Made by a program: the position numbers and the translations under genes
Shown here: positions 6,387 to 48,682 of the stretch, piece after piece
Layout of the letters: each line of letters begins with the position of its first letter
How positions within the stretch are numbered: the first letter of the stretch is position 1
The notes under the pieces: generated by a model
Databases searched by the model: none
What the model saw: the letters and a program-made list of their open reading frames with translations, nothing else
Told to the model about the DNA's origin: nothing
Assembly (NCBI GenBank): GCA_022842285.1
Contig: JALHPV010000014.1
Span: 1 to 48,682, forward strand
Origin: Kofleriaceae bacterium
GTDB taxonomy: Bacteria > Myxococcota_A > Polyangia > Haliangiales > Haliangiaceae
Direction of reading: 5' to 3'
Length of the DNA stretch: 48,682 nucleotides

Positions 6387-7338
6387 GACGGGTGAGGTTC
6401 CTCTCGGCGAGATCGAACAGGGCCACAGTACGCTTCTCGGGCCGCAGATGTGGAGCAACTTGCCGGGCGGCGGCGCGCGCCGCCTCCGGTGTGATCGTCT
6501 CGACCTCCAGGAGGTCGCCCTCGGCGAGGAGCTCGCCGCGGAAGAAGGCAGTGCGGGTGGCGACCCACCGATCGGCGCCCGCCGGAGCGAGGAAGTCTTG
6601 CGCCATGTCCGACGCATCGACGGACTGCAGCAGGCCACGCACCACGCCGTCGCGCAGGTGCACCGTCCACGCCCACAGCGGCAGGGCGACGTCGAGCGGC
6701 AGCGGGTAGTCGGCGATCCGCTCGGTGTACCGCGCCGCCGCCTCGGCGTTGTAGATGGCGTCGCCGCGCCCGATGTCGCCCATGTTGTAGAACATCAACA
6801 TGCCGCGCTCGACGGGCGGCACACCGGTGCGCTCGCGGTACTTCACCTGATGGAGCCGGATCGTGGCGCTCGTCGCGAGTCCCGGGGCGCGCGCCTCGAT
6901 GGCTCGTACAAACGCGAAGAAGGGCCCCTGGGTGCCATCGGTCCAGTCGCAGTCGAACTGCAGGGCGCGCGGCGTACCGAAAGGCGCATAGCGCCGGACG
7001 GTCTCGTCCCACACGCGCTGCGCCAGCGCCTCGGGGGCGACGTGCTCGAACGCGGCGTGACGCACGAACACGACGGGGATGACCTCGAGGTTCGGCGGCA
7101 CCGTCGCGCCTTCGCCGAGCGTCAGGCCCCCGGCCACGTCGCCCGACTCGTCGATGTCGAAGACCCGCAGGTAGAGCGTCGCGACCCCCAACGCGGTCAG
7201 GGCCTCGGTCTCGGCGGCGGTCGGCGCGAACGTCGTGCGCCAGTAATAGAAGGCCCGCGCGGGCGGCGGCCCCGGGGTCCGCTCCGGCTTCGAGCAGGCC
7301 CAGGCCATCCCGAGCACGAGCAGCGCGAGGATCCGCAT
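6343..7338 (-). CDS. Lipoprotein, DUF3142-like
   Basis: A 331-residue lipoprotein: signal MRILALLVLGMAWAC with Cys15 as the lipidation site, then a Pro-rich linker. The mature domain opens with FYYWRTTFAPT, followed by LYLRVFDIDESGD, EVIPVVFVRH and LQFDCDWT, which fits the DUF3142 family as I recall it (beta/alpha-barrel-like, no defined reaction). A GTG at 7347 forms a GTGA overlap with the stop of the upstream oxidase gene and is an alternative start; the ATG at 7338 gives the cleaner signal peptide. Either way the gene is translationally linked to the oxidase. The DUF assignment is from motif memory and needs a profile search. Confidence 0.78.
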   Translation of the reverse strand: MRILALLVLGMAWACSKPERTPGPPPARAFYYWRTTFAPTAAETEALTALGVATLYLRVFDIDESGDVAGGLTLGEGATVPPNLEVIPVVFVRHAAFEHVAPEALAQRVWDETVRRYAPFGTPRALQFDCDWTDGTQGPFFAFVRAIEARAPGLATSATIRLHQVKYRERTGVPPVERGMLMFYNMGDIGRGDAIYNAEAAARYTERIADYPLPLDVALPLWAWTVHLRDGVVRGLLQSVDASDMAQDFLAPAGADRWVATRTAFFRGELLAEGDLLEVETITPEAARAAARQVAPHLRPEKRTVALFDLAERNLTRHDASTLAALFDSVR

Positions 7339-27495: not shown

Positions 27496-29307
27496 ATGCC
27501 ACAGCCCCCTAACCCACCTGGTGGTCCACCGTCTCGGCGCTCGGGAGCAGGGTTCCCGCCTCCCGAGCAGGACTACGGCGACTTCGAAGAGTCGACGAGC
27601 ATCAACCAGATCCCGCAATCGCAGGTCGGAGGCCAGGGTGCGCCTCCCCTGCCACCGCCCGGCCCGCACCCCGGCCTCGGCATGGCGCCGCCCCCGCAGT
27701 TCGCATCGCCTTCGCCCTCGCTCTCGCACGTTGGCGCGATGCCGCAGCCGCCGCCGCCTGGCTTCACGGGCGCGTACGGCGTCAGCGGGCAGGACTACGG
27801 CTACGAGGACCCCGCCCACTACACGCCCGGCCCGCCGATGAACGCCGCATCGGGCGTGATCGCGCAGCAGACGCCGTACGTCTCGCGCAGCCGGATCTAC
27901 GCGTTCGTCGTCGACGAGAACGGCAACCCGATCGAGCTTGGGTCGGGGCGCTTCGCGAAGGCCTATCTCGGCGAGGAACGCTGGGTCGAGTCCAAGACCA
28001 CGTTGCGCCGCCCCGTCGCCCTGAAGTGCCTGCAGAAGGGCGTCTCCGGCGAGGATCAGATGCGCTTCCAGATGGAGAAGGAGATCCTCGAGCGGGTGCA
28101 GGGTCACCCGAACATCGTCGAGCTCCTCGGCTCCGGCGAGGGTGACTCCAACGGCTTCATCCCGCCGTCGATCCGTGACCGCGTCGAGAATGACTTCATG
28201 ATCCTCGAGCTCCTCGACATGAGCCTCGAGGAGCGTCTCAAGGGCGCCCGCCAGAAGCGCCGCCGCGACGATCTGCTCGCGGTGCCGATGCGCGAGCGCA
28301 TCTTCCGCGTGCTGGAGTATCTGGTGCCCGTCGCGACGGCCGTCGAGTTCGCGCACCTCGTTCGCGATACCTGTCACCGCGACATCAAGCCGGCGAACAT
28401 CCTCGTCAAGCTGGGCGATCCCAACCTGCGTGGCTCGCAGATGAAGGTGAAGCTCGCCGACTTCAACGTCGGCAAGGCCGCCGACTCCGAGATGGACATC
28501 TCGATGACCCGGTTCCAGGCCGTGCCGGGCACCCTGTACTTCCAGTCGCCCGAGCAGGAGACGAACACGTTCGAGCTGCTCGTCAACTGCACGCAGGGCT
28601 CGCCCGAGGTCGAGTTCTTCGAGGACTTCTACATCGACATCTACGAGAACGACACGTTCTCGCTGTTCAACCGCAACGAGATGTACTCGATCGCGGCCGC
28701 CGACCGCACGCGCAAGAAGCTCCTCCTGAATCGGCCGTTCGCGGAACAGTCCGAGATCAACGTTCGCGGGCGGGTGTTGAAGAGCGTCGGTCGCCCGGCC
28801 GACATCTACTCTCTCGGCGCGGTCTTCTACTACCTGATCAGCGGCGCCTACGCGAACCCGAAGAACCTCTACGACGCCTTCCGCAAGTTCGTCGAGTACG
28901 AGAAGCGCGACGAGAACAACTCGATCGCCGCATACATCGACCACGAGTACCGGACGATCCAGAACCTGCGCGCCCCCAAGCAGGACGGCCAGGGGGCGCC
29001 CGAGCTGGCGCCCGAGGATCGGTTCTTCACCTACAAGCACTACCTCGATGGCAACGGCGAACTCATCGACCCCTCGATCATCATGATCGTCGCCAAGGCG
29101 ATGATCCGGAACAAGCCGGACAGCTACTGCCTGTCGTACGACCTGCGGACGACCGGCATCTCGGCGATGGTCCACGACCTGCTTTCGCTCTACATCCAGT
29201 ACGGAATCGACCCGTCGGCGCGCGGCGCATACGGCAACGACGCATACGTGCAGCCCAAGAAGGGCAACGCGATGCGACGTGCATTCGACAAGTTCTTCAA
29301 GAAGTAG
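27496..29307 (+). CDS. Atypical serine/threonine kinase (DFN, large insertion)
   Basis: A 603-residue kinase with a Pro-rich N-terminus (1-130). Kinase landmarks are LGSGRFAKAYLG (148-159), Lys177 in VALKCL, CHRDIKPANI (His294-Asp296) and LADFNVGKA, where DFG is changed to DFN (Asp322-Asn324). The APE-like SPEQE (351-355) is followed by an insertion of about 75 residues (356-432, acidic and aromatic: VEFFEDFYIDIYENDTFSLF) before GRPADIYSLGAVFYYLISG resumes the F-helix. The C-lobe runs to about 570, with a basic tail. The metal-binding Asp is kept, so activity is possible, but the loop and insertion are unusual. No membrane span. It lies between a canonical kinase and a transporter gene on the same strand. 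Confidence 0.9.
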   Translation: MPQPPNPPGGPPSRRSGAGFPPPEQDYGDFEESTSINQIPQSQVGGQGAPPLPPPGPHPGLGMAPPPQFASPSPSLSHVGAMPQPPPPGFTGAYGVSGQDYGYEDPAHYTPGPPMNAASGVIAQQTPYVSRSRIYAFVVDENGNPIELGSGRFAKAYLGEERWVESKTTLRRPVALKCLQKGVSGEDQMRFQMEKEILERVQGHPNIVELLGSGEGDSNGFIPPSIRDRVENDFMILELLDMSLEERLKGARQKRRRDDLLAVPMRERIFRVLEYLVPVATAVEFAHLVRDTCHRDIKPANILVKLGDPNLRGSQMKVKLADFNVGKAADSEMDISMTRFQAVPGTLYFQSPEQETNTFELLVNCTQGSPEVEFFEDFYIDIYENDTFSLFNRNEMYSIAAADRTRKKLLLNRPFAEQSEINVRGRVLKSVGRPADIYSLGAVFYYLISGAYANPKNLYDAFRKFVEYEKRDENNSIAAYIDHEYRTIQNLRAPKQDGQGAPELAPEDRFFTYKHYLDGNGELIDPSIIMIVAKAMIRNKPDSYCLSYDLRTTGISAMVHDLLSLYIQYGIDPSARGAYGNDAYVQPKKGNAMRRAFDKFFKK

Positions 29308-34885: not shown

Positions 34886-35467
34886 ATGTCTGAGACCCCT
34901 GACCAGTCCCCCGACGACCAGATGGCCGCACAGTTCGAGCGGATCATCCGTCGCGTCAAATCGTCGATGAACTACCGAGGTTCTTACAGCACGCGAGACA
35001 TCCTGGGTTCACTCGTGGCCCGGTGGCTCACTAGCGGGGAGTGGGATCGGTTGAAGGCGCTGCCCGCACCCGAGCGGCGTATCGGCGAGAGCGTGCGGCG
35101 CTTCATTCTCGATCGCATCGACCAGCTGCGGCGCCGCGGCGAGCAGGAGCCCATGCCCGATGATCTCCTGGTCATGCCCGACGACGCCACGCTGACCGAG
35201 ATGGCCGAGGCGGCTGAGCTACGCGCCTGGATTCATGCCCGCGTGGCTGATCTCGAGAACGGTGTGGTCGACGAGCGGGTGAAGATTCCGGTGAGAAGTC
35301 CGCGCCAGGTCGGGCAGGCGCTCCGCCTTCATATCAACGGGAACACGCAGCGTCAGATCGCGAGCGAGCTCGGGCTCTCGCTCGGCGCGGCGAACAAGCG
35401 GATCCTCGAGGGCACCAACTACCTCGTGGTGCTCCAGGGCATCGAGTCGGGGCTCACGGGTGTATGA
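34886..35467 (+). CDS. ECF-like RNA polymerase sigma factor
   Basis: A 193-residue sigma-like protein. The N-terminal part (about 10-100) has FERIIRRVKSSMNYRG and ERRIGESVRRFILDRIDQLRRRG, in the place of sigma region 2 but weakly conserved. The C-terminal VGQALRLHINGNTQRQIASELGLSLGAANKRI (about 143-174) is a clear region-4 helix-turn-helix. A TTG 21 nt upstream (34865) is in frame, but the ATG at 34886 is preferred. Its TGA overlaps the ATG of the next gene (ATGA), so sigma and kinase are co-translated. Known precedent: ECF groups such as ECF43 are genetically coupled to serine/threonine kinases, which may phosphorylate and activate them. Confidence 0.82.
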   Translation: MSETPDQSPDDQMAAQFERIIRRVKSSMNYRGSYSTRDILGSLVARWLTSGEWDRLKALPAPERRIGESVRRFILDRIDQLRRRGEQEPMPDDLLVMPDDATLTEMAEAAELRAWIHARVADLENGVVDERVKIPVRSPRQVGQALRLHINGNTQRQIASELGLSLGAANKRILEGTNYLVVLQGIESGLTGV

Positions 35468-37233
35468 CCGAGGGACGGGTGAGGAAGAAGCTCGCGCGGA
35501 TCGCGTCGCATCCCATGCAGGCATGGTCGCAGCGGGTCGCAGAGGAGTTTCCGGACGACGCCGCGCTGCGGATGCAGGCGCTCCTGTGGCTTCATGCGGA
35601 GCAACAGGGCGACGACGAGACCGGACCGCCGTCTCTGGGGAGAGCCGCCGACGAACGCTACGAGCTTGCTGTTCGCCTGGACACCGGCGCCACTTCGTCG
35701 GTCTGGCAGGCCTACGACCGGCGCCTCGGCCGCAACGTAGCGATCAAGGTGTTCCACGAACGCGACGAATCAGAGGCCCTCGATCAGGTCCTCGCCGAAG
35801 CTCGCGCTGCCAGCGACGTCATCTCCGACCATGTGGTGCGCGTCCTCGACGTCCAGGTCGGTGATGGCCATCCATACATCGTGATGGAGCTGGTGAGCGA
35901 GTACGACCCCGAGCACGGCGAGATCGTGCGCGGCAAGACCGCGGCGGACACGGTGCCCACGGATATCGACGAGGTCGCCCGCTGGGTGATGCACGTCGCG
36001 AGAGGTGTCCACGACGCTCACCTGCGCAACGTGTTTCATCGCGACCTGAAACCGAAGAACGTCCTCTTGACCCCGAACTCGCGGCGCGCTCGCGTGGCGG
36101 ACTTCGGGCTGGCGGTGAGCGCTGCGAGTCCCGATGCGGTCCATCCCGCGATCACGCTGTTGCGGCGAGGACCGCTGGGCCCGGTCAGTGTTCGAGGAAC
36201 ACCCGAGTACATGGCCCCCGAGCAGGCACGTGGGCTTTCGCCTGGACTCGACGCCCACAACGCCCAGGATCGGGCGGTGCTCGTGGCGGTCGATATCTGG
36301 GGCATCGGCGCGATCGCGTACGAGTTACTGAGTGGGCATCCACCGTGGGTGGTGCGACCGGCGGACGACCTGAGCGCGTGGGAGATCGCGGCCTCGGCCG
36401 AGCACCCTCCCCGCCTGGTCCGGACGCGTACGGGCCAGAGCATTCCCCACCGTCTCCGTCGCGTGCTCGAGAAGGCGATGGCCCCCGAACCGGCGCGCCG
36501 CTACCTGACCGCGGCCGCCGTCGCGAACGAGCTCGAAGCGTTCCTGGATCGGCGACCGACGACGCAGGACCGGTCGCGCCTGTTGCGACTCGCACTCTGG
36601 TGTAGACGTAGTCCCCAGCTCGCCCTGACGGCCCTGGTCGCTGTCGCCCTGACGGCGCTCGCCGTCGGGACGCATGCCACCGTCACGCGTCTCCGCAGCG
36701 AGCGCGACGGACTCACGGCGGCCGTCGATGCCCAGAAGGCGGAACAGGCGCGGTTGAATTCGAGTGTCGAGGAGTCGCGCGAGGCCCTCGCCGACACGCG
36801 CACCAAGCTCGGGCGTGAACGGGAAAACCTGTCGAACCTCGAGCAGGTCCTCGCCGACGAGCGATCGTCTTATCAGACCCTGCTCGACGCGAAGGAGCAG
36901 GCGCTCTCGAACGCCACGAAGAGCACCCTCGAGATCCTGGCTAGACTGGAGGAGGCGCAACGCGTCCAACGCAGCGCCGACCATGCGCGCCTCCAGATCG
37001 AGCGCGCCATGCTGGAGCTACGGCGAGAAGGCGAGAAGGCGGCCAAGGATCGAGACCGGATCCGCAAGGAGCGCGAAGCCGCAAGGGCGGAGCGCGACAT
37101 GGCCCAGCGAGAGCGCGATGAAGCGGAGAGTCAACGGGAGGCAGCCCTGCGAGAGCGCGACGTCGCTCGCCGAGAGTTGAACGATCTCAAGCGGCAACTG
37201 GAGCGCATGGCGCGAGCGCGCCCGCGCAACTAA
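35464..37233 (+). CDS. Membrane serine/threonine kinase with long C-terminal coiled coil
   Basis: A 589-residue kinase. Kinase domain about 67-362: VRLDTGATSSVWQAY (loose Gly loop), Lys95 in VAIKVF, FHRDLKPKN (His192-Asp194), VADFGLAVS (Asp213), TPEYMAPEQARG (APE 251-253). One membrane span at about 384-404 (SPQLALTALVAVALTALAVG). Residues 408-589 are an almost unbroken charged coiled coil (RERDEAESQREAALRERDVAR), which would lie in the periplasm and could sense or dimerise. Coupled to the sigma factor gene by ATGA overlap. Unlike the two kinases at 25463-29307 it is membrane-bound. Likely acts on the neighbouring sigma factor (inference). Confidence 0.93.
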   Translation: MTEGRVRKKLARIASHPMQAWSQRVAEEFPDDAALRMQALLWLHAEQQGDDETGPPSLGRAADERYELAVRLDTGATSSVWQAYDRRLGRNVAIKVFHERDESEALDQVLAEARAASDVISDHVVRVLDVQVGDGHPYIVMELVSEYDPEHGEIVRGKTAADTVPTDIDEVARWVMHVARGVHDAHLRNVFHRDLKPKNVLLTPNSRRARVADFGLAVSAASPDAVHPAITLLRRGPLGPVSVRGTPEYMAPEQARGLSPGLDAHNAQDRAVLVAVDIWGIGAIAYELLSGHPPWVVRPADDLSAWEIAASAEHPPRLVRTRTGQSIPHRLRRVLEKAMAPEPARRYLTAAAVANELEAFLDRRPTTQDRSRLLRLALWCRRSPQLALTALVAVALTALAVGTHATVTRLRSERDGLTAAVDAQKAEQARLNSSVEESREALADTRTKLGRERENLSNLEQVLADERSSYQTLLDAKEQALSNATKSTLEILARLEEAQRVQRSADHARLQIERAMLELRREGEKAAKDRDRIRKEREAARAERDMAQRERDEAESQREAALRERDVARRELNDLKRQLERMARARPRN

Positions 37234-37362: not shown

Positions 37363-38787
37363 CTAGATCGCGAGCGTTCCGCGCCAGCCGCCCCCGAGCG
37401 CACGGTACAGCCGGATCAGCATCAGGTGCTGCTGGCGTCGCGCGTGGATCAGGGAGACCTCGGCATCGAGCGTGGCTTGCTGGGCGAGCAGCACGTCGAG
37501 GTAGGTCGCCTTGCCGGCGCGAAACAGGGCGTCGGCGGCATCGACCGAGCCCCCGGCCGCATCGCGCTTGTGCTGGTTCTCGACGACGATCTCGCTAGCG
37601 GATGCCAGCGCCTTCAAGCCGGTCACGACCTCGACGTACCCGGTGAGGATCGCGCGCTGGTAGCTATACATCGCCTGAAGCTGCGTCGCCTCGGCGGCCT
37701 GGAACGCGGCCTGGATGCCACGGCGGTTGACGAGTGGTGCCACGAGCCCACCGACCAGCGAGTACGCGATCGACTCCGGCGTTCGCAGCAGGAACCGTGG
37801 ATCGAACGCCTGATACCCGACCGACGCCGAGAGCGTGAGGCGCGGAAAGAACGCGGCGCGTGCGGCGGCGACATCGGCGCGGGTAGCGGAGAGCTCGAGC
37901 TCGGCGACCTTGATATCGGGACGATTCTGGAGCAACGCGGATGACAGGCCGGCGGAGACGGTCGCTGGCACCGGCCGATCGAGCATGTCGCGCGTCCGCG
38001 CGATCGGCTGGGGCGGCCGGCCCACGAGCAGGTTGAGCTCGTTCTCCAGCTCGACAATCCGCTGCTGATTCTCGATCCGCAGCGTCCGTGTCGAGGACAA
38101 CTGGACCGCGAGCTGCTGCACCGCGAGCTCGTTCGCACGCCCCGCTTGCTTCTCGAGACGCATCATCTCCAGCGCCTGCTCCTGGCGCTCCTGCGACTGG
38201 AGGACGATCTCGTCGATCCGGTCGAGCGCGAGGAGCTCCACGTAGCGGGCGCCGATATCGGCTACAAGCCGCGTCACCACGAGCTTGGCGCCCTCGACGG
38301 ATGCCAGGTACTGCGCACGGGCGGCCTCGTGTAGTTGACTCAGGCGCCCCCACACGTCGGCCTCCCACGAGGCCTGCAGTCCCACGTACAGATCCGGCAG
38401 ATGCTCCGGAACACGTCGTCCGGGGGTGATGTCCGTCGACGCGTTCCCCGCGCCGTCCATCGTGTAAAGGCCGTACTTACGCACGGCCGCGGACGTTCCG
38501 AGGGCGACCGTCGGAAGACGTGCACCACCCGCCTGGCTCGCCGCCGCCCGCGCGACCTCGATCCGCTGCAGGGCGATGTGGACGTCGAAGCTCCCATTGA
38601 GAGCCTCGCTGATGAGCGCGCGGAGGTTGTCGTCCGCGAAGAAGGTGTGCCAGTCGACCTCGCCGAGGCTCGGCCCTGCCAGCGAGCCGGCGAAGTCGGT
38701 CGGCACGGTCACCGCCCGCACATCCTTGATGGTCGACGCGGGCGCACAGGCCGCCAGGGTCGCGGCGATGGCTACCCACCGCGTCAT
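37363..38787 (-). CDS. Outer membrane efflux lipoprotein (NodT/OprM, TolC family)
   Basis: A 474-residue outer-membrane factor. Signal MTRWVAIAATLAAC with lipobox LAAC, typical of the NodT/OprM group. Two repeats of long helices are visible, for example LAVQQLAVQLSSTRTLRIENQQRIVELENELNLLVGRPP and FRAGKATYLDVLLAQQATLDAEVSLIHARRQQHLMLIRLYRALGGGW, the latter being the classic C-terminal block. NRPDIKVAELELSATRADVAAARAAFFPRLTLSASVGYQ marks the second half. It would form the outer-membrane channel for the RND pump encoded upstream. The ATG shares a base with the TGA of the pump gene (TGATG), so it is the last gene of the efflux operon. Confidence 0.94.
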   Translation of the reverse strand: MTRWVAIAATLAACAPASTIKDVRAVTVPTDFAGSLAGPSLGEVDWHTFFADDNLRALISEALNGSFDVHIALQRIEVARAAASQAGGARLPTVALGTSAAVRKYGLYTMDGAGNASTDITPGRRVPEHLPDLYVGLQASWEADVWGRLSQLHEAARAQYLASVEGAKLVVTRLVADIGARYVELLALDRIDEIVLQSQERQEQALEMMRLEKQAGRANELAVQQLAVQLSSTRTLRIENQQRIVELENELNLLVGRPPQPIARTRDMLDRPVPATVSAGLSSALLQNRPDIKVAELELSATRADVAAARAAFFPRLTLSASVGYQAFDPRFLLRTPESIAYSLVGGLVAPLVNRRGIQAAFQAAEATQLQAMYSYQRAILTGYVEVVTGLKALASASEIVVENQHKRDAAGGSVDAADALFRAGKATYLDVLLAQQATLDAEVSLIHARRQQHLMLIRLYRALGGGWRGTLAI

Positions 38788-41700
38788 CACAGCTCTCCCA
38801 TCGGCGGCCGTCGCGTTGCCCCCGTCGAGAGCCGTTTGCATGCCACGTACACGCCGGGGACGATCACGAGGCCAACGATCGTCCCGACCACCATGCCCCC
38901 CACGGTGGCCGCTCCGATCGTTCGATTCGCAACTGCACCGGCGCCACTCGCGAGCATGAGCGGAACGAGTCCCGCGATGAACGCGAGCGACGTCATGAGG
39001 ATGGGGCGAAGTCGCAGCCGGGCCGCCTGCACCGCGCCTTCGAGCGGCCCCGCCCCCGAGGCCACCTTCAGCTCCGCGTACTCCACGATGAGGATGGCGT
39101 TCTTTCCGAGCAGGCCGATGAGCACGATCAGCGCGATGTGGACGTAGATGTTGTTCTCCAGACCTAACCAGTGCACGAGACCAAAGGCGCCGAACAGGCC
39201 GGGGGGAAGCGAGAGCAGGACCGCTGCGGGCAGCAGAAAGCTCTCGTACTGGGCAGCGAGGACGAGCCAGACGAACACCAGCGCGATGACTCCGACGATC
39301 AAGCCCTGATTCCCGGCATTCACCTCGTCGCGCGAGATTCCCGCCCAGTCGATCGTCCACCCGCGCGGCAGCTTGTCGCGAGCGGTCTCCTGCACCGCCC
39401 GGAGCACGTCGCCGCTGCTCACGCCGAGCTTGCCTTCGCCGTTGAGCTCGGCAGAGGGATACATGTTGTAGCGGGTCAACGAATCGACTCCGTAGGACTT
39501 CTCGAGCGTCATGAATGCAGAGAGCGGAACGAGCTTGCCGCTGTCGCTCCGTACGCGGAGGTTCAGGATCTGTTCGGCCGATACCCGGTACTCGGGCGGA
39601 GCCTGGACCATCACCTTGTACATCTGGCCGAAGCGGATGAAGTTCGTCGCGTACTCGCTGCCGAGCAGCGTCTGCAGCGTGCTGAGCGCCCGCTCGGACG
39701 TGACGCCGATCTGCGCCGCTTGATCGATATCGATGTCGACCGTGTACTGGGGATAGCTCGCGTTGAAGATGGTGAACGCGCTGGCGATCTCGGGCCGCGC
39801 CTTCAGGTCGGCGATGAACTGGGTGACCACTTGCTGCATCTCGAGCGCGTTCCCGCGCCCCGTGCGGTCGAGGAGCCGGAGCTCGAACCCGCTCGCGTTG
39901 CCGTAGCCGGGGACCGCCGGCGGCGGAAAGAGCTCGAGGTCCCCGTCCTTGATGTGGCGCGTTCGGGCCTCGAGCTCGGCCATGATGTCGTCCACCGAGC
40001 GCGTTCGTTCCGACCACGGCTTCAAGTTGACGAGGCAGGTCCCGTAGCTGGCTCCCGTGCCATCCGAGAGCACGTTCGTGCCCGCCAGCGTCGCGACGCT
40101 CTCGACGCCTTCGATCGCGCGGCCCTCGACGGCGATCGCATCGACCACCTGCTTCGTGCGTTCGACCGTGGCTCCCGGCGGCGTGGTGACGCTCACGTAG
40201 AACATCCCCTGGTCCTCCTGCGGGATGAAGCCACGGGGGACCTCCCGGGCGACCAGCACGCCGACGATCGCGAAGCCGACGATCAGCACCGCGGGAACCA
40301 CGAAGCGCGAGGCCGTGCGTCGAATCACCGACGCGTAGCCGCTCTCGACACGCTCGTAGCCCCAGTTGAATCCGCCGAAGAACCTGCCGACGGCGCGGGA
40401 CACCTGAGTCGTCGACCGCGGGCGATCGTGCGCGTGCATCAAGGCTCCGCAGAGCGCCGGCGTCAGGGTCAGCGCCACGACCCCCGAGAGCGTGATCGAG
40501 ATGGCCGTGGCCACGCCGAACTGCCGGTAGAACACCCCCGCCGGGCCATCGATGAACGCGAGCGGCACGAACACCGCCACCATCACGAGCGTCATCGCGA
40601 CGATCGCAGGTCCGATCTCTCGCACGGCGCTCTCGGCCGCCGCCCGCGGGGGCAACTTGTCGTGGTGGATCTTGAAGTGGACTGCTTCGACGACGACGAT
40701 CGCGTTGTCGACGACGATACCGATCGCCAGCACGAGTGCGAACAGCGTGATGAGGTTCAGCGAGAAGCCCAGCTGCGACGTGAAGATCAGCGTTCCGACG
40801 AGCGATACGGGCACGGCGAGGATCGGCACGAGCGTGGACCGAAAGTCTTGCAGGAACAGGAAGACGACCAAGGTGACGAGCAAGAAGGCTTCGACCAGCG
40901 TCCGCAGCACTTCGTGGACCGATGCGTCGAGGAAGCGGCTCACATCGAAGCTGACGTCGTAGGACATCCCCGGCAGAAACGTGTCCTGCTCGATCTTCTC
41001 GAGTGATGCCTTGACCGCGGTGATCACCTCGCGCGCATTCGACCCGGGCTGCTGCTTGAGCACGAGCGACGCGGCCGGGCGCCCGTTGTACTTCGCCTCG
41101 ACATCGAAGTAGTTCGTGCTGAACTCGATGGTCGCAACGTCGCCGACCCTCAGCACCTGGCCGTCCGCCGTCGCTCGCACGGGGATCCGCGCGTACTGCT
41201 CTTCCGTGTTGAACTTCCCCGTGTACGTCAACGTGTACTGGAGCGGTGTCTGTCGCCGGTCGCTGTTCTCCCCGAGCTTTCCGGGAGCGGCCTCGATGTT
41301 GTACGCCCGCAACGCGGCCAGCACGTCGTCGACGGAGACGTCATACGCGGTGAGCTTGTCGGGCTCGAGCCACACGCGCATCGCGTACTCCTTGGCCCCC
41401 AGGATGTCCGCGAAGCCGATGCCTCGGATGCGCTTGAGCTCGGCGAGCACGTTGATATCGGCAAAGTTGTAGAGAAACTTCTCGTCGTGCTCGGGGTTGC
41501 TGCTGTTCAGGCTGATGTACATGAGCATCGCGTTCTCTTCCTTCGCGACTCTCACGCCGTTCCGGATGACCTCCGCCGGCAGCTCGTCGATCACCGAGTT
41601 CACTCGGTTCTGAACGTTGATGGCTGCCACGTCGGGATCGGTCCCGGCCTCGAACAGGATCTGGACCACGCCGACGCCGTCGTTTCCGGCGTCGCTGCTC

Positions 41701-41933
41701 ATGTACTTCATGCCGGGAACGCCATTGATGGCGCGCTCGAGCGGGACGATCGCCGCCTTGATGACGGTCTCGGCGTTCGCCCCCGTGTACTCGACGCTGA
41801 CGTTGACCTCTGGCGGAGCGATGTCCGGGAACAGGGCCATCGGCACTTTCAGGAGCGCCAGAACCCCGAGGATCGTGATCAAGATCGAGATGACCGCTGC
41901 CAGCACCGGCCGGCGAACGAACGTCGTCAGCAT
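38787..41933 (-). CDS. RND efflux pump, HAE1 (AcrB-like) family
   Basis: A 1048-residue inner-membrane pump, the normal length. Hallmarks are FVRRPVLAAVISILITILGVLALLKVPMALFPDIAPPEV at the N-terminus, a repeated 12-helix plan, and the helix-10 GLLGKNAILIVEYAE with Lys944 (AcrB Lys940). In helix 4 the proton-relay pair reads VVDNAIVVVEAV: Asp409 is kept but the second Asp of AcrB (Asp408) is Asn410 here. The coding bases are clear (GAC AAC). The change would be expected to weaken or alter proton coupling. The pump exports hydrophobic or organic solutes with the adaptor (41939) and channel (37363); substrate unknown. The intergenic distance to the adaptor gene is 5 bp. Confidence 0.94.
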   Translation of the reverse strand: MLTTFVRRPVLAAVISILITILGVLALLKVPMALFPDIAPPEVNVSVEYTGANAETVIKAAIVPLERAINGVPGMKYMSSDAGNDGVGVVQILFEAGTDPDVAAINVQNRVNSVIDELPAEVIRNGVRVAKEENAMLMYISLNSSNPEHDEKFLYNFADINVLAELKRIRGIGFADILGAKEYAMRVWLEPDKLTAYDVSVDDVLAALRAYNIEAAPGKLGENSDRRQTPLQYTLTYTGKFNTEEQYARIPVRATADGQVLRVGDVATIEFSTNYFDVEAKYNGRPAASLVLKQQPGSNAREVITAVKASLEKIEQDTFLPGMSYDVSFDVSRFLDASVHEVLRTLVEAFLLVTLVVFLFLQDFRSTLVPILAVPVSLVGTLIFTSQLGFSLNLITLFALVLAIGIVVDNAIVVVEAVHFKIHHDKLPPRAAAESAVREIGPAIVAMTLVMVAVFVPLAFIDGPAGVFYRQFGVATAISITLSGVVALTLTPALCGALMHAHDRPRSTTQVSRAVGRFFGGFNWGYERVESGYASVIRRTASRFVVPAVLIVGFAIVGVLVAREVPRGFIPQEDQGMFYVSVTTPPGATVERTKQVVDAIAVEGRAIEGVESVATLAGTNVLSDGTGASYGTCLVNLKPWSERTRSVDDIMAELEARTRHIKDGDLELFPPPAVPGYGNASGFELRLLDRTGRGNALEMQQVVTQFIADLKARPEIASAFTIFNASYPQYTVDIDIDQAAQIGVTSERALSTLQTLLGSEYATNFIRFGQMYKVMVQAPPEYRVSAEQILNLRVRSDSGKLVPLSAFMTLEKSYGVDSLTRYNMYPSAELNGEGKLGVSSGDVLRAVQETARDKLPRGWTIDWAGISRDEVNAGNQGLIVGVIALVFVWLVLAAQYESFLLPAAVLLSLPPGLFGAFGLVHWLGLENNIYVHIALIVLIGLLGKNAILIVEYAELKVASGAGPLEGAVQAARLRLRPILMTSLAFIAGLVPLMLASGAGAVANRTIGAATVGGMVVGTIVGLVIVPGVYVACKRLSTGATRRPPMGEL

Positions 41934-41938
41934 GGCGG

Positions 41939-43066
41939 CTATCCCTGCGCCGGCTCGGCGGGGGTTGCCGAGGGCATCGAGGGGCGCACGTCGATGCGCG
42001 CACCGTCCTTGATCTTCTGCACGCCTTCGACCACGAAGCGCTCGTCGGCCGCGAGACCCGCCTCGAGGACGTAGATGTCGTCCACGCGCTCGCGGATCTC
42101 GAGCTTGCGCGCGTGGGCGATTCCGGAGGCATCGACGGTGTAGAGATACACGTTCCCCTGGACCTCGAAGGTCGCCTTCTGGGGAACCACCAGCGCTGCC
42201 TTCAGCGTGGTCTCGAGGACGACCTTCGCGCTGCTGCCGTGCTTCACGAGCCCGCTGGGATTCGCGAACCGGGCCCGGTACATGATCGTGCCGGTCGCGG
42301 CGTCGATCTCGCTGGTGACCGCGTCGATGGTACCCGTCTCCTCGAAGAGCGATCCGTCCGCGAGCCTCAGCCTCACGGTTCGCGGAGCTGCGGAACCGGT
42401 CGCGCGAACATGCTCCAGGTACTCGCGCTCGGCGACGGCGAAGTACGCGAGCACTTCGCGCGTGTCGCTGATCGTGGTCAGCTCGACCGTCTCGTCGACG
42501 GCGCTGCCGGCCTTGAAGGGGATCCGGTTGACCACGCCGTCGAAGGGCGCGCGGATCTCGGCGCGATCGACCTCGACAGCGGTGCGTCCCGTGGCCGCCT
42601 TGGCTTGCTCGAGCCGGGCCTCGAGCATCTGCACCTTCGACTTGGCGCGCGCGAGCTCCGCCGGAGAGACGACGTTCTTGTCGGCGAGCAGCTGGACGTT
42701 CGCGACCTCCTGTTGCGCTGCCTCGAGCTCGGCGGATACCGCCACGCTCGCGGCCCGCGATACCGCCAGCTCCTGCTTGCGTGACCGGGCGTTGATCGTG
42801 AAGAGCCGCTGCTTGTGCTTGACGGCTTGCCCTTCATCGACGGCGACCGCCTCGATGATCCCGAAGTAGCGCGAGCGAATCTCGGCATGACGCGCTGCGC
42901 GGATATCGGCCACGTACTCGTGCGAAATCACGATGTCGCGGGTCTCCGGACGGGCGATCGGGAACGCATCGCCTTCCGTCGTGGGGGCGACGGACGCCGC
43001 TCCCTCTCGGTCACAACCGACGCAAACGAGCGCCAGCGCCACAGCGCATGAAATGGATCTGGTCAC
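41939..43066 (-). CDS. RND periplasmic adaptor (membrane fusion protein)
   Basis: A 375-residue lipoprotein adaptor with GTG start: signal ending CVGC (Cys about 18). The lipoyl half-motif AEIRSRYFGIIEAVAVDEGQAVKHKQRLFTI is followed by a full alpha-hairpin (about 100-165: ELAVSRAASVAVSAELEAAQQEVANVQ ... LARAKSKVQMLEARLEQAKAA), then AEIRAPFDGVVNRIPFKAGSAV, beta-barrel and membrane-proximal domains. It bridges the pump to the outer-membrane channel. A close, shorter paralogue lies immediately upstream (43126). Confidence 0.93.
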   Translation of the reverse strand: MTRSISCAVALALVCVGCDREGAASVAPTTEGDAFPIARPETRDIVISHEYVADIRAARHAEIRSRYFGIIEAVAVDEGQAVKHKQRLFTINARSRKQELAVSRAASVAVSAELEAAQQEVANVQLLADKNVVSPAELARAKSKVQMLEARLEQAKAATGRTAVEVDRAEIRAPFDGVVNRIPFKAGSAVDETVELTTISDTREVLAYFAVAEREYLEHVRATGSAAPRTVRLRLADGSLFEETGTIDAVTSEIDAATGTIMYRARFANPSGLVKHGSSAKVVLETTLKAALVVPQKATFEVQGNVYLYTVDASGIAHARKLEIRERVDDIYVLEAGLAADERFVVEGVQKIKDGARIDVRPSMPSATPAEPAQG

Positions 43067-43125: not shown

Positions 43126-44031
43126 TCAATTGCCCGCGATCGAGAACTGCACGTCGATCCGCGCCCCGTCCGTGATCGTCTCGAGGCGGTCCGCGACGAA
43201 CCGCTCGCTCGGCTCGAGGCCCGACTCGATGACGAACAGATCGTCGAGACGCTCGCGCACCTCGATCCTCCGCGCTCGGGCCACATGGCCCTGATCGACC
43301 GTGTAGACGTAGACCTCGCCCTGAACTTCGAAGGCTGCCCGCAGGGGAACGACCAGCACCGAGCCCACCCGGGTCTCGAGCACGACCCTGGCTCTGTTAC
43401 CCTCCTTCACGATCCCCTCGGGATTCGCGAATCGCGCGCGGTACACGATGGAGCCCGTCGGAGCACCGTTCTCGCTGCCCACCGAATCGATGGTGCCCTC
43501 GTGTGCGAACAGCGAGCCATCCGAGAGGAGGAGCTTGACCCTGGTAGGTGCCGCCGCGGCATCGGGCGGCACGAGCCGGCGGTACTCGCGGTCCGCCACC
43601 GCGAAGTGAGCGAAGATCTCGCTCCTGTCGCTGATCGTTGCGAGTACGCTGGTCTCGTCCACCGCGCTCTCCTCTCCGACGGCGATCTGTTCGACCACGC
43701 CGTCGATCGGGGCCAGGATTTCCACGGCAGCCCTTCGCTCGTGCATGTTCGCGCGCGGTTGGATCGTGAAGAGCAGCTGACGCCCCGTCACGGCCTGCCC
43801 TTCGACGACCGAGACCGCACGGATGTTGCCGGGGAGCCACGACCGGACCTCGGCGTGCCGCATGGCTCGCACATCGGCCGCGTACTCGCGCGAGATCACG
43901 ACATCGCGGGTCTCGGGAGCCGCCGTCGGGACGAGGTCGCCGGTGGTCACGGGGACGACCGCTTCCCCGTTGCGATTGCAACTGGCGCAAGCGAGGGCGC
44001 ACGCCACAGCCAATGGGATGGAGCAGGTCAC
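43126..44031 (-). CDS. Hairpin-less RND adaptor paralogue
   Basis: A 301-residue lipoprotein with GTG start and lipobox around Cys18. It aligns along its whole length with the next adaptor (VPTAAPETRDVVISREYAADVRAMRHAEVRS; VYVYTVDQGHVARARRIEVRERLDD; TDGARID), but the alpha-hairpin is missing: the lipoyl halves are joined directly by TIQPRANMHERRAAVEILAPIDGVV, about 65 residues shorter. Adaptors use the hairpin to contact the TolC-type channel, so this copy probably cannot dock by itself; it may contact only the pump. It is the first gene of the efflux operon. Both copies are intact reading frames, so it is not simply a pseudogene. Confidence 0.88.
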   Translation of the reverse strand: MTCSIPLAVACALACASCNRNGEAVVPVTTGDLVPTAAPETRDVVISREYAADVRAMRHAEVRSWLPGNIRAVSVVEGQAVTGRQLLFTIQPRANMHERRAAVEILAPIDGVVEQIAVGEESAVDETSVLATISDRSEIFAHFAVADREYRRLVPPDAAAAPTRVKLLLSDGSLFAHEGTIDSVGSENGAPTGSIVYRARFANPEGIVKEGNRARVVLETRVGSVLVVPLRAAFEVQGEVYVYTVDQGHVARARRIEVRERLDDLFVIESGLEPSERFVADRLETITDGARIDVQFSIAGN

Positions 44032-44087: not shown

Positions 44088-45749
44088 CTACAGCCGGTGG
44101 AGGCCGATGACGCGCGGCTGCGACGTATCCGGATCGTCGGCGATGTGGACGAGCGTGCCCGGGATCCCGCGCGACGTCTCGATGCGCAGGATCGTGTAGC
44201 GGCCGTCGACGGCGGTGCCGCCGCGGGGAAGCTTGGTCGTGCAGGTCTTGCCCGTCGCGTCGGGCGTGAGCTGCTGGAGCGAACCGGCGAGCGCGCGACC
44301 GTCGTTGTCGTACGCATCGACGGTATACGTCACGGGCCAGTCGGCGAGGTGGTGCTTCACGATCAGGTCGTCGAAGCAGACCCGATCGGCGGTCTCGAGG
44401 ACGAAGTCGTCGACCGGATTCACCTTCGTGAACCAGTGGAGGGCGGTGCGGCGCTGGCGCTTGATGAGGGTCTCGAGGAGGTAGGGGGCGGCCCGCGGAT
44501 CGGTCAGCTTGCCTTGCTCGATCGCGGCGGCGAGCTGGGCCCGCGTCATCTCGATGATGATCTTGGCGCCCCAGAACTGATCGAAGCGATCAGCCACGTA
44601 GACCGGGAGGTGACCGATCGGGTTCGGCTTCCAGCCCTCCGGCCGGTAGTCCTCGGCGGAGTACATGCCGAGACCGGGGATCTCGGGGTCGACGCGGCCC
44701 TCCCACGGCTGGCGGCGGAGGCCGAGGGTCAGGAACGACCACGTGAACTCGTACGGATCGACCTCGTAGGTGAAGTCGGGCTGCGGGCGGCGGTTCGAGC
44801 GGGGGAAGGCGCCGAGCGAGTTACCAAAGTCGATGTGGTAGTGGACAACGTAGTGGGTGCTCTTGTCCGCGGGATCCTCTTCCCAGGACTCGAGCGTGTT
44901 GTCCTCCTTCATGTCCGTGTGGGCGAGCCACGCTGCGAAGGCCGCCATGCCGCGCTGATCGCGGCGGAGCTCGTGCGGGATGACGTCGTTCGGATCGTCC
45001 TTGCGCGTGCCGAGGCGGTGCGAACCGCCGAGCGGCTTCCCGGTGATGTAGAGGGACGCCGTGCCGCGATACTTGCCGGTGGGTTGCGCGAGAGCCCGCG
45101 CGAACTCGTCGTCGACCATCTGCTCGGTCAACGGCTGCTTCTCACCCTTGATCTTCTTGTAGGCCGTGTCGCCGACGACGAGGTCCTTGCGATCGAAGAA
45201 GACGACGTGGTCGGAGGGCACGTTGTAGCCGGCCGCCCAGAGGATGCGCGCGGTGATGACGTCAGCGGCGCTGTCGAGCTCGGGCTCGTCCTTGGGCGAG
45301 AACTTGAGGAGGAACTTGCGGCCCTTCGAGTCCTCGCAGATGAAGCCGGGGACCGAGCCGCCTTCCTTGGCCGACTTGATCGTCCAGGGCAGGTTCTCGT
45401 ACGGCGTCTCGCCGGGCGCGCCCTGGGCGACCTCGGCGGGTGTGACCTCGCGCATGCCGACGCGGTTCGTGAACCACGTCGAGTCGGGGACCTCGTCGAG
45501 CGAGTTCACGCCGCGGGCGCGCTGCTCGCGCGTCAGGCTCAGGTGGCGGCGCGCGAGGAGGAGGTACGAGGTGAAGTGGTAGTAGGGCCGGTAGAAGGGA
45601 TTCTCCGCGGGCTGCGTGGGGACGTCGGTGCGGTCATTCACCTTCCACACCGGCGGCGTGTTGACGAAGCGCACCGATCCGACCGGCGATGCGGTTCCGC
45701 AGGCGGCGATCGCCAGCACCAGGATGATGGCCGCAGCGCGCATGATCAT
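44088..45749 (-). CDS. Lipoprotein with protein-kinase-like (HipA/FAM20-type) motifs, copy B
   Basis: A 553-residue lipoprotein, signal ending IAAC (Cys17). The ATG at 45749 forms an ATGA overlap with the upstream paralogue; 45743 is an alternative. Conserved blocks shared with copy A are VNSLDEVPDSTWFTNR (81-96), PWTIKSAKEGG, GRKFLLKFSPKDEPELDSAADVITARILWAAG (Lys149; acids about 157-159), IPHELRRDQRG, AWLAHTDMKEDNTL (Asp279, Asp283, Asn284) and HYHIDFGNSLG (Asp307). The order Lys, acidic helix, D-x(3)-D-N loop and DFG-like strand resembles the active site of HipA/FAM20/CotH-type kinase-like folds. Function is inference; no other family is recognised. Last gene before the efflux operon. Confidence 0.75.
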   Translation of the reverse strand: MIMRAAAIILVLAIAACGTASPVGSVRFVNTPPVWKVNDRTDVPTQPAENPFYRPYYHFTSYLLLARRHLSLTREQRARGVNSLDEVPDSTWFTNRVGMREVTPAEVAQGAPGETPYENLPWTIKSAKEGGSVPGFICEDSKGRKFLLKFSPKDEPELDSAADVITARILWAAGYNVPSDHVVFFDRKDLVVGDTAYKKIKGEKQPLTEQMVDDEFARALAQPTGKYRGTASLYITGKPLGGSHRLGTRKDDPNDVIPHELRRDQRGMAAFAAWLAHTDMKEDNTLESWEEDPADKSTHYVVHYHIDFGNSLGAFPRSNRRPQPDFTYEVDPYEFTWSFLTLGLRRQPWEGRVDPEIPGLGMYSAEDYRPEGWKPNPIGHLPVYVADRFDQFWGAKIIIEMTRAQLAAAIEQGKLTDPRAAPYLLETLIKRQRRTALHWFTKVNPVDDFVLETADRVCFDDLIVKHHLADWPVTYTVDAYDNDGRALAGSLQQLTPDATGKTCTTKLPRGGTAVDGRYTILRIETSRGIPGTLVHIADDPDTSQPRVIGLHRL

Positions 45750-47434
45750 CGGCGGTAGATTCCGATGACGCGCGGCGCCCCGGACTGGGGATCGATGGCG
45801 ACGTGGATGGACGTCCCCGGGATGCCGCGAGTCGAGCCGACCTCGTAGATCGTGTAGCGCTCGCCGTCGGTGGCCATCGGGAGGTCGGGGAGGCATACGT
45901 CACCCTTCGCATCGGTGGTGACGGCGGCGATGTCACCGAGGAAGCGCTCCTCGTTGTCATACGCCTTCGTCGTGAAGGTGGTGGCGCCATCGGCGAGGCC
46001 GTGGCGAACGGCGAGGTCGACGAAGCAGAGCCGGTACTTGCCATTGACGATCTTCACCGCGATCTCGTCGATCGGGTTCACGCGCTCGAACCAGTACCGG
46101 GCCGTGATGCGCTGGCGCGCGACGAGCGTCTTCACGAGGTACGCCGATGACTCGGCGTTCGTCAGCCGGCCGGCCTTCACCGCGGCCGCGATCTGCGCCT
46201 CCGTGAAGCGGATGAGCAGCTTCGAGCCCCAGAACTGATCGATCCGGTCCGCGAAGATGATCGGGAACTGCCCCGCCGGGTTCGGCTTCCACTCCGTCGG
46301 TTCCCAGTTCTTCGCCGAGTAGATACCGACGCCGGGATAGCCCGTCACCATCTCGCGGTCCTCCCAGCTCTGCGTGCGCAGGCCGAGCGACAGGAGCTGG
46401 AGCAGCGTCTCCTTGAAGTCGAGCTGGTACTGGTAATCGATGATCGGATCCCGGTGGATGGCCGGGTACGCCCCGAGCGACTTCCCGAAGTCGATCAGGT
46501 AGTGCTTCATGTAGTGCTTTGACTTGTCGCCCGGGTCCTCGATCCACGTATCGATCGACTGGTCCTCCTTGGCATCGCTGACCGAGAGCCACGCCGACAA
46601 CGCCGCCTGCCCACGCATGTCACGCCGCAACTCGTGCGGGATCCTATCGTTCGGATCGTCCTCGCGGGTACCGAGGCGCGGAGTGCCGCCGCGCGGCTTG
46701 CCCTCGACGAAGATCGACGCCATGCCGCGGATCGTGCCGTCCTCCTGGATGTTGACACGCGCGAGCTGCTTCTCGACGTAGGCCATGTCGAGCGGGACCT
46801 TCTCGCCCTTGAGCTTGTAGGTCGCATCCTTGTCGATCTTGAAGTCCGTCTGCTTGAAATAGACGACGTGATCGCTCGAGACGTTCCAACCCGCGGCCCA
46901 GAACAGCCGGCCGACGATGACGTTCGCCGCCGTCTCGATCTCGGGGTGCGACCGCTCGTCGAACTTGAGGACGAACTTCGTGCCCGCGCTGTCTTCGCAC
47001 ACGAAACCGACGGAGGCCCCGCCCGCCTTCGCGCTCTTGATCGTCCAGGGCCGATGCTGGTCGGGCGAGTGCGCCGGGCCCGGTCCCTCCTCGATCTCCG
47101 CAGCGCTGAGCGGCGGGCGGTTCGTGAACCACGTCGAGTCCGGAACCTCGTCGAGCGCGTTCACGCCCCGCGAGCGCTGGTCACGCGTCAGGTCGAATCC
47201 CCGACGCGCGCGCAGGAAGTACGAATCGAAGTGATAGAACAACCGGAGGAACGGCCGATCCTCTGGCGCCTCGGGGGTATCGACGCGATCGTTCACCACC
47301 CAGACGGGCGCTGCGTTCTTGAAGCGCACGGGACCGACAGGCGACGGGGCGCACGCCCCGACGAGGCTTACGACGGCAATCCCGGCGACAGCGACGGGCT
47401 TGGCACTCCGTACGGTGGAATCGAAGCGACGCAT
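45746..47434 (-). CDS. Lipoprotein with protein-kinase-like (HipA/FAM20-type) motifs, copy A
   Basis: A 562-residue lipoprotein, signal ending VGAC (Cys28). Motifs parallel copy B: VNALDEVPDSTWFTNR (91-106), GTKFVLKFDERSHPEIETAANVIVGRLFWAAG (Lys157; Glu165, Glu167), AWLSVSDAKEDQSIDTW (Asp287, Asp291) and MKHYLIDFGKSLGAYP (Asp315). The Asn of copy B is Gln here. Downstream WKPNPAGQFPIIFADRIDQFWGSK and ARYWFERVNPIDEI are also shared. The ATG shares a base with the stop of the Omp85-like gene, and its stop overlaps copy B, so the three proteins are made from one mRNA and probably work together at the outer membrane. Confidence 0.75.
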   Translation of the reverse strand: MRRFDSTVRSAKPVAVAGIAVVSLVGACAPSPVGPVRFKNAAPVWVVNDRVDTPEAPEDRPFLRLFYHFDSYFLRARRGFDLTRDQRSRGVNALDEVPDSTWFTNRPPLSAAEIEEGPGPAHSPDQHRPWTIKSAKAGGASVGFVCEDSAGTKFVLKFDERSHPEIETAANVIVGRLFWAAGWNVSSDHVVYFKQTDFKIDKDATYKLKGEKVPLDMAYVEKQLARVNIQEDGTIRGMASIFVEGKPRGGTPRLGTREDDPNDRIPHELRRDMRGQAALSAWLSVSDAKEDQSIDTWIEDPGDKSKHYMKHYLIDFGKSLGAYPAIHRDPIIDYQYQLDFKETLLQLLSLGLRTQSWEDREMVTGYPGVGIYSAKNWEPTEWKPNPAGQFPIIFADRIDQFWGSKLLIRFTEAQIAAAVKAGRLTNAESSAYLVKTLVARQRITARYWFERVNPIDEIAVKIVNGKYRLCFVDLAVRHGLADGATTFTTKAYDNEERFLGDIAAVTTDAKGDVCLPDLPMATDGERYTIYEVGSTRGIPGTSIHVAIDPQSGAPRVIGIYRR

Positions 47435-48682
47435 CAGTAACGCTCCACTCGCGACCGAGCCTGGAAGATCGGGTTGAAGGACAGGTACGCGAACATGCCG
47501 CCATCGATCGAGCTCGCGACCTCGGCCCGCACGAGCATGCCGGCCGCCGAGTACGCCTCGAGGGCGATGCCGTAGCCGATACGCAGGTTATCGAGATCGA
47601 GATCCGACACCGACGGTGACACCTTACCCGCGTCCACGAAGACCGTACCGGCGAGCGTGCGACCGATGAAGAAGAGGTAGCCGGCCTGCGCCACCGTCGC
47701 GACGCGATCGCGGAAGCGATCACCGAGGTAGCCCCGCAAGAGGTCCTGGCCGCCCAGGCGTGGCAGCTCCGTGAACGGCACTTCGTCACGCGCGCCCGAC
47801 ACCATCTCGCCGTACGCGCGGAGCTCGATGACACGTGGGCCCTTCGTCAGGCGAAAGTAGCGCTGCAGATCGAAGCCGGCGCGGTAGAACGAGGGCTCTC
47901 CGTCGAGGCGGCCCATCTGCCGCCCGAGGAATGCCATGGCGAGGCCACCGGTGCCGCGAATGCCGGGAGAGTCGTACTCGTCGTAGGGGCGGCGCGAGTC
48001 GTAGGCGAGCTGCGCCTCCGTGTAGAAGTACTCCGTGCCGCGGACGAAGCCCGGCAGCGCGTTGCCGGAGACGTTGTAGGCGTCGCTGATGTTCTGGTCG
48101 TCGCCCAGGTTCGTCGAGTCGCCGTACTCCTTGTGGACGAAGCCACCTTCGAGCTGCAGCTGGAACCGGTGCGGCAGCTTCACGGTGATGCGCGGCACGA
48201 TGCGCCAGATGTCCATCGCGAAGCGGGACCGCACCGAGGCGTCGTTCTCGAGCACGTTGATGCCCATGGTCTGCTGGTCGTCGAGCTCGTCCCCGTTGCC
48301 GTAGCCGAAGAACCGATCGCGATCGCGGTTCTCGTAGCGTGCGGTGATGCCGATGGCGACCGGGTCGCTCACCCGGCGGCCCGTATCGAGATCGATCTCG
48401 GCGTAGCGGTTCTGGCGACCACCGAAGCCGCCGCGCAGCGAGAGCTTCTCGTTCTCGCCGAGCAGATCGCGAAAGAAGGCCCGGACGCCAACGTTCAGGC
48501 CGAAGCCCGTCTCGACGAGCGCGGTCGGATACACGCCGACCTTGCCGTCCTCGCTGATGAACACGGCCGCGATCTTGTCGGCGACGTTGTATTTCTCCTG
48601 CAGGTACAGCGCGCCGCGGATCGGCTGCAGCACGATCTCGACGGGGATACGCCCCAACCACAGGACGACCCGTCCGAGGATG
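47434..48682 (-). CDS. Omp85/BamA-like outer membrane beta-barrel protein (5' end outside window)
   Basis: At least 415 residues; the frame is open to the window edge with no ATG, so the start is probably beyond 48682 (a TTG at 48657 is not a convincing start). The sequence alternates amphipathic beta strands with turns rich in Gly/Asn/Asp (RYENRDRDRFFGYGNGDELDD). FTELPRLGGQDLLRGYLGDRFRD contains the L/VRGY element of loop 6, diagnostic of the Omp85 C-terminal barrel, and the protein ends in a terminal strand with aromatic residues (NPIFQARSRVERY). Expected role: outer-membrane assembly or secretion pore, or a surface antigen of this class. The coupling to two lipoproteins by TGATG and ATGA overlaps suggests a dedicated complex. 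Confidence 0.85.
   Translation of the reverse strand, partial: ILGRVVLWLGRIPVEIVLQPIRGALYLQEKYNVADKIAAVFISEDGKVGVYPTALVETGFGLNVGVRAFFRDLLGENEKLSLRGGFGGRQNRYAEIDLDTGRRVSDPVAIGITARYENRDRDRFFGYGNGDELDDQQTMGINVLENDASVRSRFAMDIWRIVPRITVKLPHRFQLQLEGGFVHKEYGDSTNLGDDQNISDAYNVSGNALPGFVRGTEYFYTEAQLAYDSRRPYDEYDSPGIRGTGGLAMAFLGRQMGRLDGEPSFYRAGFDLQRYFRLTKGPRVIELRAYGEMVSGARDEVPFTELPRLGGQDLLRGYLGDRFRDRVATVAQAGYLFFIGRTLAGTVFVDAGKVSPSVSDLDLDNLRIGYGIALEAYSAAGMLVRAEVASSIDGGMFAYLSFNPIFQARSRVERY

Follow-up and report, generated by a model that had tools for sequence, protein, structure and literature searches.

The animal Fam20 kinases are an established case of phosphorylation outside the cytoplasm, and we know of no dedicated phosphorylation system in the bacterial envelope. 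HipA kinases have a D-x4-N motif and a DFG-type arrangement, the same as in the family described here. Omp85-superfamily barrels are known with enzyme domains, fused either to PF00149 or to a patatin domain (PlpD), and the survey that describes them mentions no kinase-like partner, the word "kinase" being absent from it (PMC4104836). ATP/ADP translocases form a third background to this study: passages of PMC5381601 list NTT, NTT-HEAT and NTT-HEAT-cNBD proteins of free-living bacteria as having no known role, attribute uptake into parasites or plastids to the NTT proteins characterised so far, state that no NTT-HEAT fusion has a known function, and connect no NTT with kinases or outer-membrane barrels.

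In several phyla, genes for an Omp85-type barrel and for an exported protein of predicted kinase fold form a pair, often with a gene of the TLC (ATP/ADP translocase) family nearby. Gene order and modelled structures together suggest phosphorylation outside the cytoplasm. The first-pass annotation of this locus knew of no such described system, and our literature searches, in which journal coverage was incomplete so that a prior description is possible, likewise found no account of a barrel and exported kinase-like pair.

An Omp85-type barrel gene and two lipoprotein genes

The window (the whole stretch of DNA analysed, 48,682 nucleotides) lies on contig 14 of a genome of 7.9 Mb, and three genes on its reverse strand encode the barrel, whose frame continues past the contig end, and lipoproteins B and A (Table 1). 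The first-pass annotation had described a barrel and two paralogous lipoproteins with overlapping stops and starts, and this description is confirmed: the barrel and B genes overlap by 1 nt in TGATG, the B and A genes by 4 nt in ATGA, and A and B share 53% identity. These overlaps suggest that barrel, B and A are transcribed together. The same genome carries a third copy of the family on contig 24 (L047, 3551-7960), which is flanked by two barrel genes and has a metallophosphoesterase gene upstream, and contig 84 has a further barrel at its edge. Elsewhere in the window, genes for an RND efflux pump and adaptor lie after the cluster (38787-43066), and a second adaptor gene (43126-44031) is short (301 aa vs 375 aa). 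The window also has three genes whose products contain eukaryotic-type Ser/Thr kinase domains (Pfam Pkinase; 25463-27487, 27496-29307 and 35464-37233), and nothing ties them to the cluster.

Table 1. Positions in the window of the three genes and of their lipobox and active-site residues
Feature	Positions	Strand	Remarks
Omp85-superfamily outer-membrane barrel without POTRA domain	47434-48681	-	open at contig end, N-terminus missing; Pfam Omp85
Lipoprotein B, protein-kinase-like family, 562 aa	45746-47434	-	Lys, Asp and DFG Asp present; catalytic-loop Asn replaced by Gln292
Lipoprotein A, protein-kinase-like family, 553 aa	44088-45749	-	full K/E/D/N/D set; AlphaFold2 fold
A lipobox Cys17	45699-45701	-	signal peptide and lipobox
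B lipobox Cys28	47351-47353	-	signal peptide and lipobox
A Lys149, beta3-type Lys	45303-45305	-	80/81 homologues
B K157, counterpart of A Lys149	46964-46966	-	
A Asp279, catalytic-loop Asp	44913-44915	-	81/81 homologues
B D287, counterpart of A Asp279	46574-46576	-	
A Asn284, catalytic-loop Asn	44898-44900	-	79 Asn and 2 Gln among 81
B Q292, counterpart of A Asn284	46559-46561	-	
A Asp307, DFG metal-binding Asp	44829-44831	-	81/81 homologues
B D315, counterpart of A Asp307	46490-46492	-	

The window barrel matches Pfam Omp85 (PF01103) with an E value of 5.3e-12 (46.3 bits, cut-off 24), and its AlphaFold2 model (pLDDT 91.5, pTM 0.87) has 16 strands and matches the folds of TamA (Z 27.2) and BamA (Z 26.8). 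The (V/L)RG(F/Y) motif takes the form LRGY in this barrel, with R316 invariant and G317 kept in more than 90%. PF01103 is matched at E 0.01 or better by 58 of 63 barrels, and five barrels additionally match ShlB, weakly. No POTRA profile was found in the 63 barrels, and none is predicted in the window barrel, in which the far N-terminus is missing and just two helices (2-31 and 33-41) precede the strands. As modelled, the window barrel agrees with the Omp85 proteins that PMC4104836 groups together as lacking POTRA.

Protein-kinase-like fold and active-site residues

An AlphaFold2 model of lipoprotein A, built on an 81-member alignment, shows a protein-kinase-like two-lobe fold (mean pLDDT 94.7, pTM 0.93), with a beta-rich C-terminal part at about residues 446-552. 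A Foldseek search of the PDB with this model returned eight matches at E<0.001, every one of them a Fam20 or Rio2 kinase, and VIA-align related the model to CtkA (Z 14.9, rmsd 4.2 over 232), Fam20C (Z 13.8, rmsd 3.9 over 259), PI4K-II (Z 12.5), HipT (Z 10.6) and HipA (Z 9.0). The first-pass annotation, which took the lipoproteins for kinases, would have been contradicted by a fold unrelated to protein kinases; the predicted fold matches several independent protein-kinase-like families. At the sequence level, neither A nor B has a profile match over the Pfam cut-off to the HipA family (PF07804, PF20613), and weak Pfam matches among the 81 members are to HipA_2 in 12 (best E 0.013) and to HipA_C in 5. 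Fam20 gave no sequence match in Pfam or the PDB and is matched by fold only, and a sequence search for a family for A or B in Pfam, NCBIfam, PADLOC and the PDB found none. Instead of the HipB-type partner and cytoplasmic location of HipA, the family has an Omp85 partner and export signals. In its predicted two-lobe fold, beta3-type Lys, catalytic-loop Asp with Asn at the fifth residue after it, and DFG Asp it agrees with the kinase-like superfamily, E157 being a candidate for the alphaC Glu, and it lies outside the HipA and Fam20 sequence families. A fold match by itself proves no reaction or function; a predicted kinase-like fold with an intact site is well supported.

Both lipoproteins contain the active-site motifs in the order first noticed at this locus, namely a Lys strand (KFLLKF with K149 in A, KFVLKF with K157 in B), an acidic PE (E157 in A), a D loop (DMKED with D279, DAKED with D287) and the IDFG strand (D307 and D315). 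In the alignment of 81 family members, from which conservation was counted in A numbering, this motif set is not due to chance, because K149 is kept in 80, D279 and D307 in all 81, and E157 in 73 homologues. Free variation of the residues named in the first-pass annotation would have counted against it; Lys149/157, Asp279/287 and Asp307/315 hardly vary, and the fourth, Asp283/291, has to be given up as part of the active site: this position is Asp in just 15 of the 81 members, and the conserved neighbour is Asn284. Lipoprotein B, with Gln292, is one of the two Gln cases at this Asn. In the model of A, K149 lies on strand 145-150, and E157, the putative alphaC Glu, which is not strictly kept, precedes the DSSP helix 158-173 by one residue. 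Of 128 non-redundant copies, 96 have the complete K/E/D/N/D set and 115, hereafter canonical, have K, D, either N or Q, and D; the other 13 are non-canonical.

It is also evident from the alignment that a block ahead of the catalytic loop, D-D-P-N-D-x-x-P-H-E-x-R-R-x-L-R, is a signature of the exported kinase-like family itself, with D252, N254, D255, H259, E260, R262, R263 and R266 invariant among the 81 members. A monophyletic side clade of nine copies (L050-L054 and L077-L080), often in genomes that also hold a canonical copy, has lost the Lys, the Asp and the DFG Asp and has retained the barrel neighbour; judged by these residues, it is a pseudoenzyme branch. At three other loci (L107, L125 and L133), tandem kinase-like genes lie behind one barrel and both copies have the full K/E/D/N/D set, unlike lipoprotein B of the window.

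Distribution, export and conserved neighbours

Neither Pfam nor NCBIfam has a model for this exported kinase-like family. Sequence searches found relatives in 30 of 284 genomes of the window's phylum, with up to 4 per genome. In GTDB contigs, a pattern scan picked up 241 relatives; the 80 retained come from Myxococcota, Acidobacteriota, Gemmatimonadota, Balneolota, Rhodothermota, Calditrichota, Latescibacterota, Krumholzibacteriota and Eisenbacteria; because the scan used one peptide pattern, these distribution counts are lower bounds. An export-type N-terminus was present in all 21 proteins inspected. A lipobox Cys occurs in most inspected Myxococcota and Balneolota proteins, whereas most inspected Acidobacteriota homologues have a plain signal peptide ending without Cys. 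Going by these N-termini, export is common to the family and the lipid anchor is lineage-specific, so that of the earlier picture of secreted lipoproteins tethered to the outer membrane, the export stands and the lipid tether is not general. In E. coli, lipoproteins are sorted by a rule in which Asp after the Cys decides the membrane. The residue following the lipobox Cys is never Asp among the 72 lipobox cases, which points to the outer membrane under the E. coli rule, a rule that may not hold in these phyla. A very distant relative at L081 (3088-4677) carries the motifs WDLKTAQN and RDVGASFG; no upstream barrel was found there, and it is perhaps a hint of a wider exported kinase-like group.

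The partnership with an Omp85 barrel, proposed at first for the window, extends well beyond it: a barrel gene lies upstream in 113 of 122 assessable loci from several phyla, and conversely 25 of 31 barrel matches in the 284 genomes adjoin a family member. Counted from stop codons, 106 of the 128 non-redundant members have a barrel directly upstream, 2 are in one ORF with it and 3 stand in tandem behind another member; among the rest, a barrel was seen on closer reading in 2, the contig ends in 6, and the barrel is absent in 9. Two single-ORF cases, L108/L056 and L141, were considered as true fusions and rejected. That of L108 (1236-3968) lacks the barrel C-terminus and the kinase N-terminus and looks like an internal deletion, and that of L141 (715-3604) lacks the last barrel strand, has a lipoprotein signal in mid-ORF and looks like a frame error.

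Clustering of the neighbouring genes revealed one more widely recurrent family besides the barrel, the TLC family, whose 7 representatives all score over the Pfam cut-off for PF03219 (ATP/ADP transporter). A TLC gene is found in 47 of the 128 loci, most copies having none nearby. It lies within 4 kb in 45 loci, on the same strand in 32 of these, 19 of them with a gap of at most 200 nt, and nine loci show the order TLC-barrel-kinase. Examples of linked TLC genes are L067 (3593-4954) and L073 (6688-8034), and the family members of Aliifodinibius salipaludis WN023 (L140) and Fodinibius salsisoli (L143) likewise have one upstream. As a guard against sampling bias, TLC genes were mapped across all 30 genomes bearing a member: of the 49 copies there, 12 have a TLC gene no more than 6 kb away, against 0.16 pairs expected (Poisson, 6e-19). 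The linkage is not one inherited block, because it requires at least 22 forced changes on well-supported branches of the family tree. TLC genes are also present in 24 of the 30 genomes with a member and in 75 of the 254 others (Fisher test, 1e-7, uncorrected for genome size and kinship). A TLC gene lies within 4 kb of 45 of the 115 canonical copies and of 0 of the 13 non-canonical ones (Fisher test, 0.004), a contrast weaker than it appears since nine of the 13 are one clade. The TLC neighbours include HEAT forms, with adjacent cNMP-binding genes.

The window's genome has two TLC genes, both on other contigs, so that the barrel-kinase unit need not always come with its own carrier; it is worth noting that the window contig stops inside the barrel gene, before the position where an upstream TLC gene could lie. 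The supply of ATP outside the cytoplasm had been conceded from the start as a real difficulty for secreted kinases, and carriers of the TLC family, if they act as their genomic position suggests, would answer it; this candidate answer comes from the relatives (12 of 49 copies against 0.16 expected) and not from the window. Two barrels adjoin a TLC carrier with no kinase-like gene beside them (L178, 3394-5762; L172, 7239-9323 on the reverse and 4151-7237 on the forward strand). Metallophosphoesterase genes lie within 4 kb of 25 of the 128 copies, a raw count without background, and PAP2 genes are near family copies in a few loci. Ser/Thr kinase genes, found near copies in 14 loci (again without a background count), were set aside as a conserved neighbour, since genomes of this kind hold many of them.

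A proposed phosphotransferase of the envelope and its closest known systems

We favour, with a probability of about 0.58, the reading that the family is an exported kinase-like phosphotransferase at an Omp85 barrel, fed with ATP by an NTT/TLC carrier and modifying an envelope target. Its computed support consists of the fold, the active-site conservation, the export signals, the coupling of the barrel gene and the enrichment of TLC genes in relatives. From these we infer a course of events in which the carrier, often encoded beside the unit, would export ATP and release it into the periplasm; the POTRA-less barrel would be the docking or assembly site of the kinase-like protein in the envelope, perhaps in a physical complex with it; and the kinase-like protein would act as a catalyst, spending ATP on an envelope substrate that could be a protein, a glycan or a lipid. 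Lipoprotein A appears fully equipped for this, and B, in which Gln stands in place of the catalytic-loop Asn, may be weaker or have a regulatory role. On a more tentative proposal, to which we give somewhat less than even odds, these bacteria would have a complete system for phosphorylation outside the cytoplasm, made up of NTT-type ATP export, an exported enzyme of kinase fold at the Omp85 barrel, an envelope substrate and perhaps reversal by metallophosphoesterase or PAP2 proteins.

Three other explanations could be offered, in descending likelihood surface display, a reaction other than phosphate transfer, and a non-catalytic role in assembly. The barrel could be a dedicated exporter and the kinase-like protein its surface-displayed passenger acting outside the cell, on the model of two-partner secretion, Slam or PlpD-type systems; this would agree with the strict order of barrel then passenger, with the weak ShlB matches of five barrels, and with the facts that Omp85 relatives carry proteins across the outer membrane and that PlpD presents an enzyme domain (PMC4104836). 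We consider this unlikely, as no POTRA domain is predicted, though secretion-type Omp85 proteins usually have POTRA domains as their periplasmic part. Carriers of the TLC family are inner-membrane transporters, and an enzyme at the surface would need ATP across two membranes. The L178 barrel, beside a TLC gene with no adjacent family member, also speaks against a passenger, but it is near a contig end.

A different reaction on the same fold, such as AMPylation, glutamylation or another nucleotide-dependent transfer, has precedents in SelO and SidJ, kinase-like folds having been re-used in this way (PMC10870513), and the unusual invariant block before the catalytic loop could be taken in its favour; we regard it as improbable, given that K, D-x4-N and DFG are the ordinary phosphotransfer set and are kept almost without exception. 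Slightly less probable still is a lipoprotein that assists a specialised barrel-assembly machine, in a BamB- or BamD-like role, and only binds a nucleotide or other ligand, without catalysis. The constant pairing with an Omp85 barrel would be explained by such a role, and the nine-member clade, having kept the barrel and lost the catalytic residues, indicates that a non-catalytic role is viable there; in the main clade, however, few positions are as conserved as those of the active site, and TLC neighbours occur at canonical copies only.

What appears to be new here is the link to TLC carriers and a kinase-fold family absent from Pfam and NCBIfam that occurs in at least eight phyla, mostly beside the same type of barrel. 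If the exported phosphotransferase is real, two matters become directly testable, the source of ATP for periplasmic chemistry and the task of the NTT-HEAT carriers that passages of PMC5381601 describe in free-living bacteria, and an enzyme class is added to the functions attached to Omp85 barrels. Under the more tentative proposal of a complete system, the orphan NTT and NTT-HEAT proteins of such bacteria would gain a function.

Of the known systems, the kinases CtkA, HipT and HipA count among those to which the kinase domain of A is closest in structure, with weak Pfam matches to HipA_2 and HipA_C. The family differs from them in being exported by a signal peptide, in having an Omp85 barrel as partner rather than a HipB-type antitoxin, and in its length of about 550 aa, with N- and C-terminal additions and scores below the family cut-offs. 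The Fam20 kinases of the secretory pathway likewise have a kinase-like fold outside the cytosol, and their match takes in the N-terminal residues of A from 33; the present family differs in its place in the bacterial envelope, its barrel partner and TLC neighbours, and in having no Pfam or PDB sequence match to them. Type II phosphatidylinositol 4-kinases also match A in structure (Z 12.5), so that a lipid substrate is possible for the family, but these enzymes are eukaryotic, act at the cytosolic membrane face and have no sequence match to it. The neighbouring carriers resemble the NTT/TLC translocases of free-living bacteria, as treated in passages of PMC5381601, in being PF03219 proteins with HEAT forms and adjacent cNMP-binding genes. 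The window barrel, with 16 strands and no POTRA, is like the Omp85 "noNterm" subfamily, and in contrast to the Omp85-PF00149 and PlpD fusions, the enzyme at this barrel would be a separate kinase-like protein.
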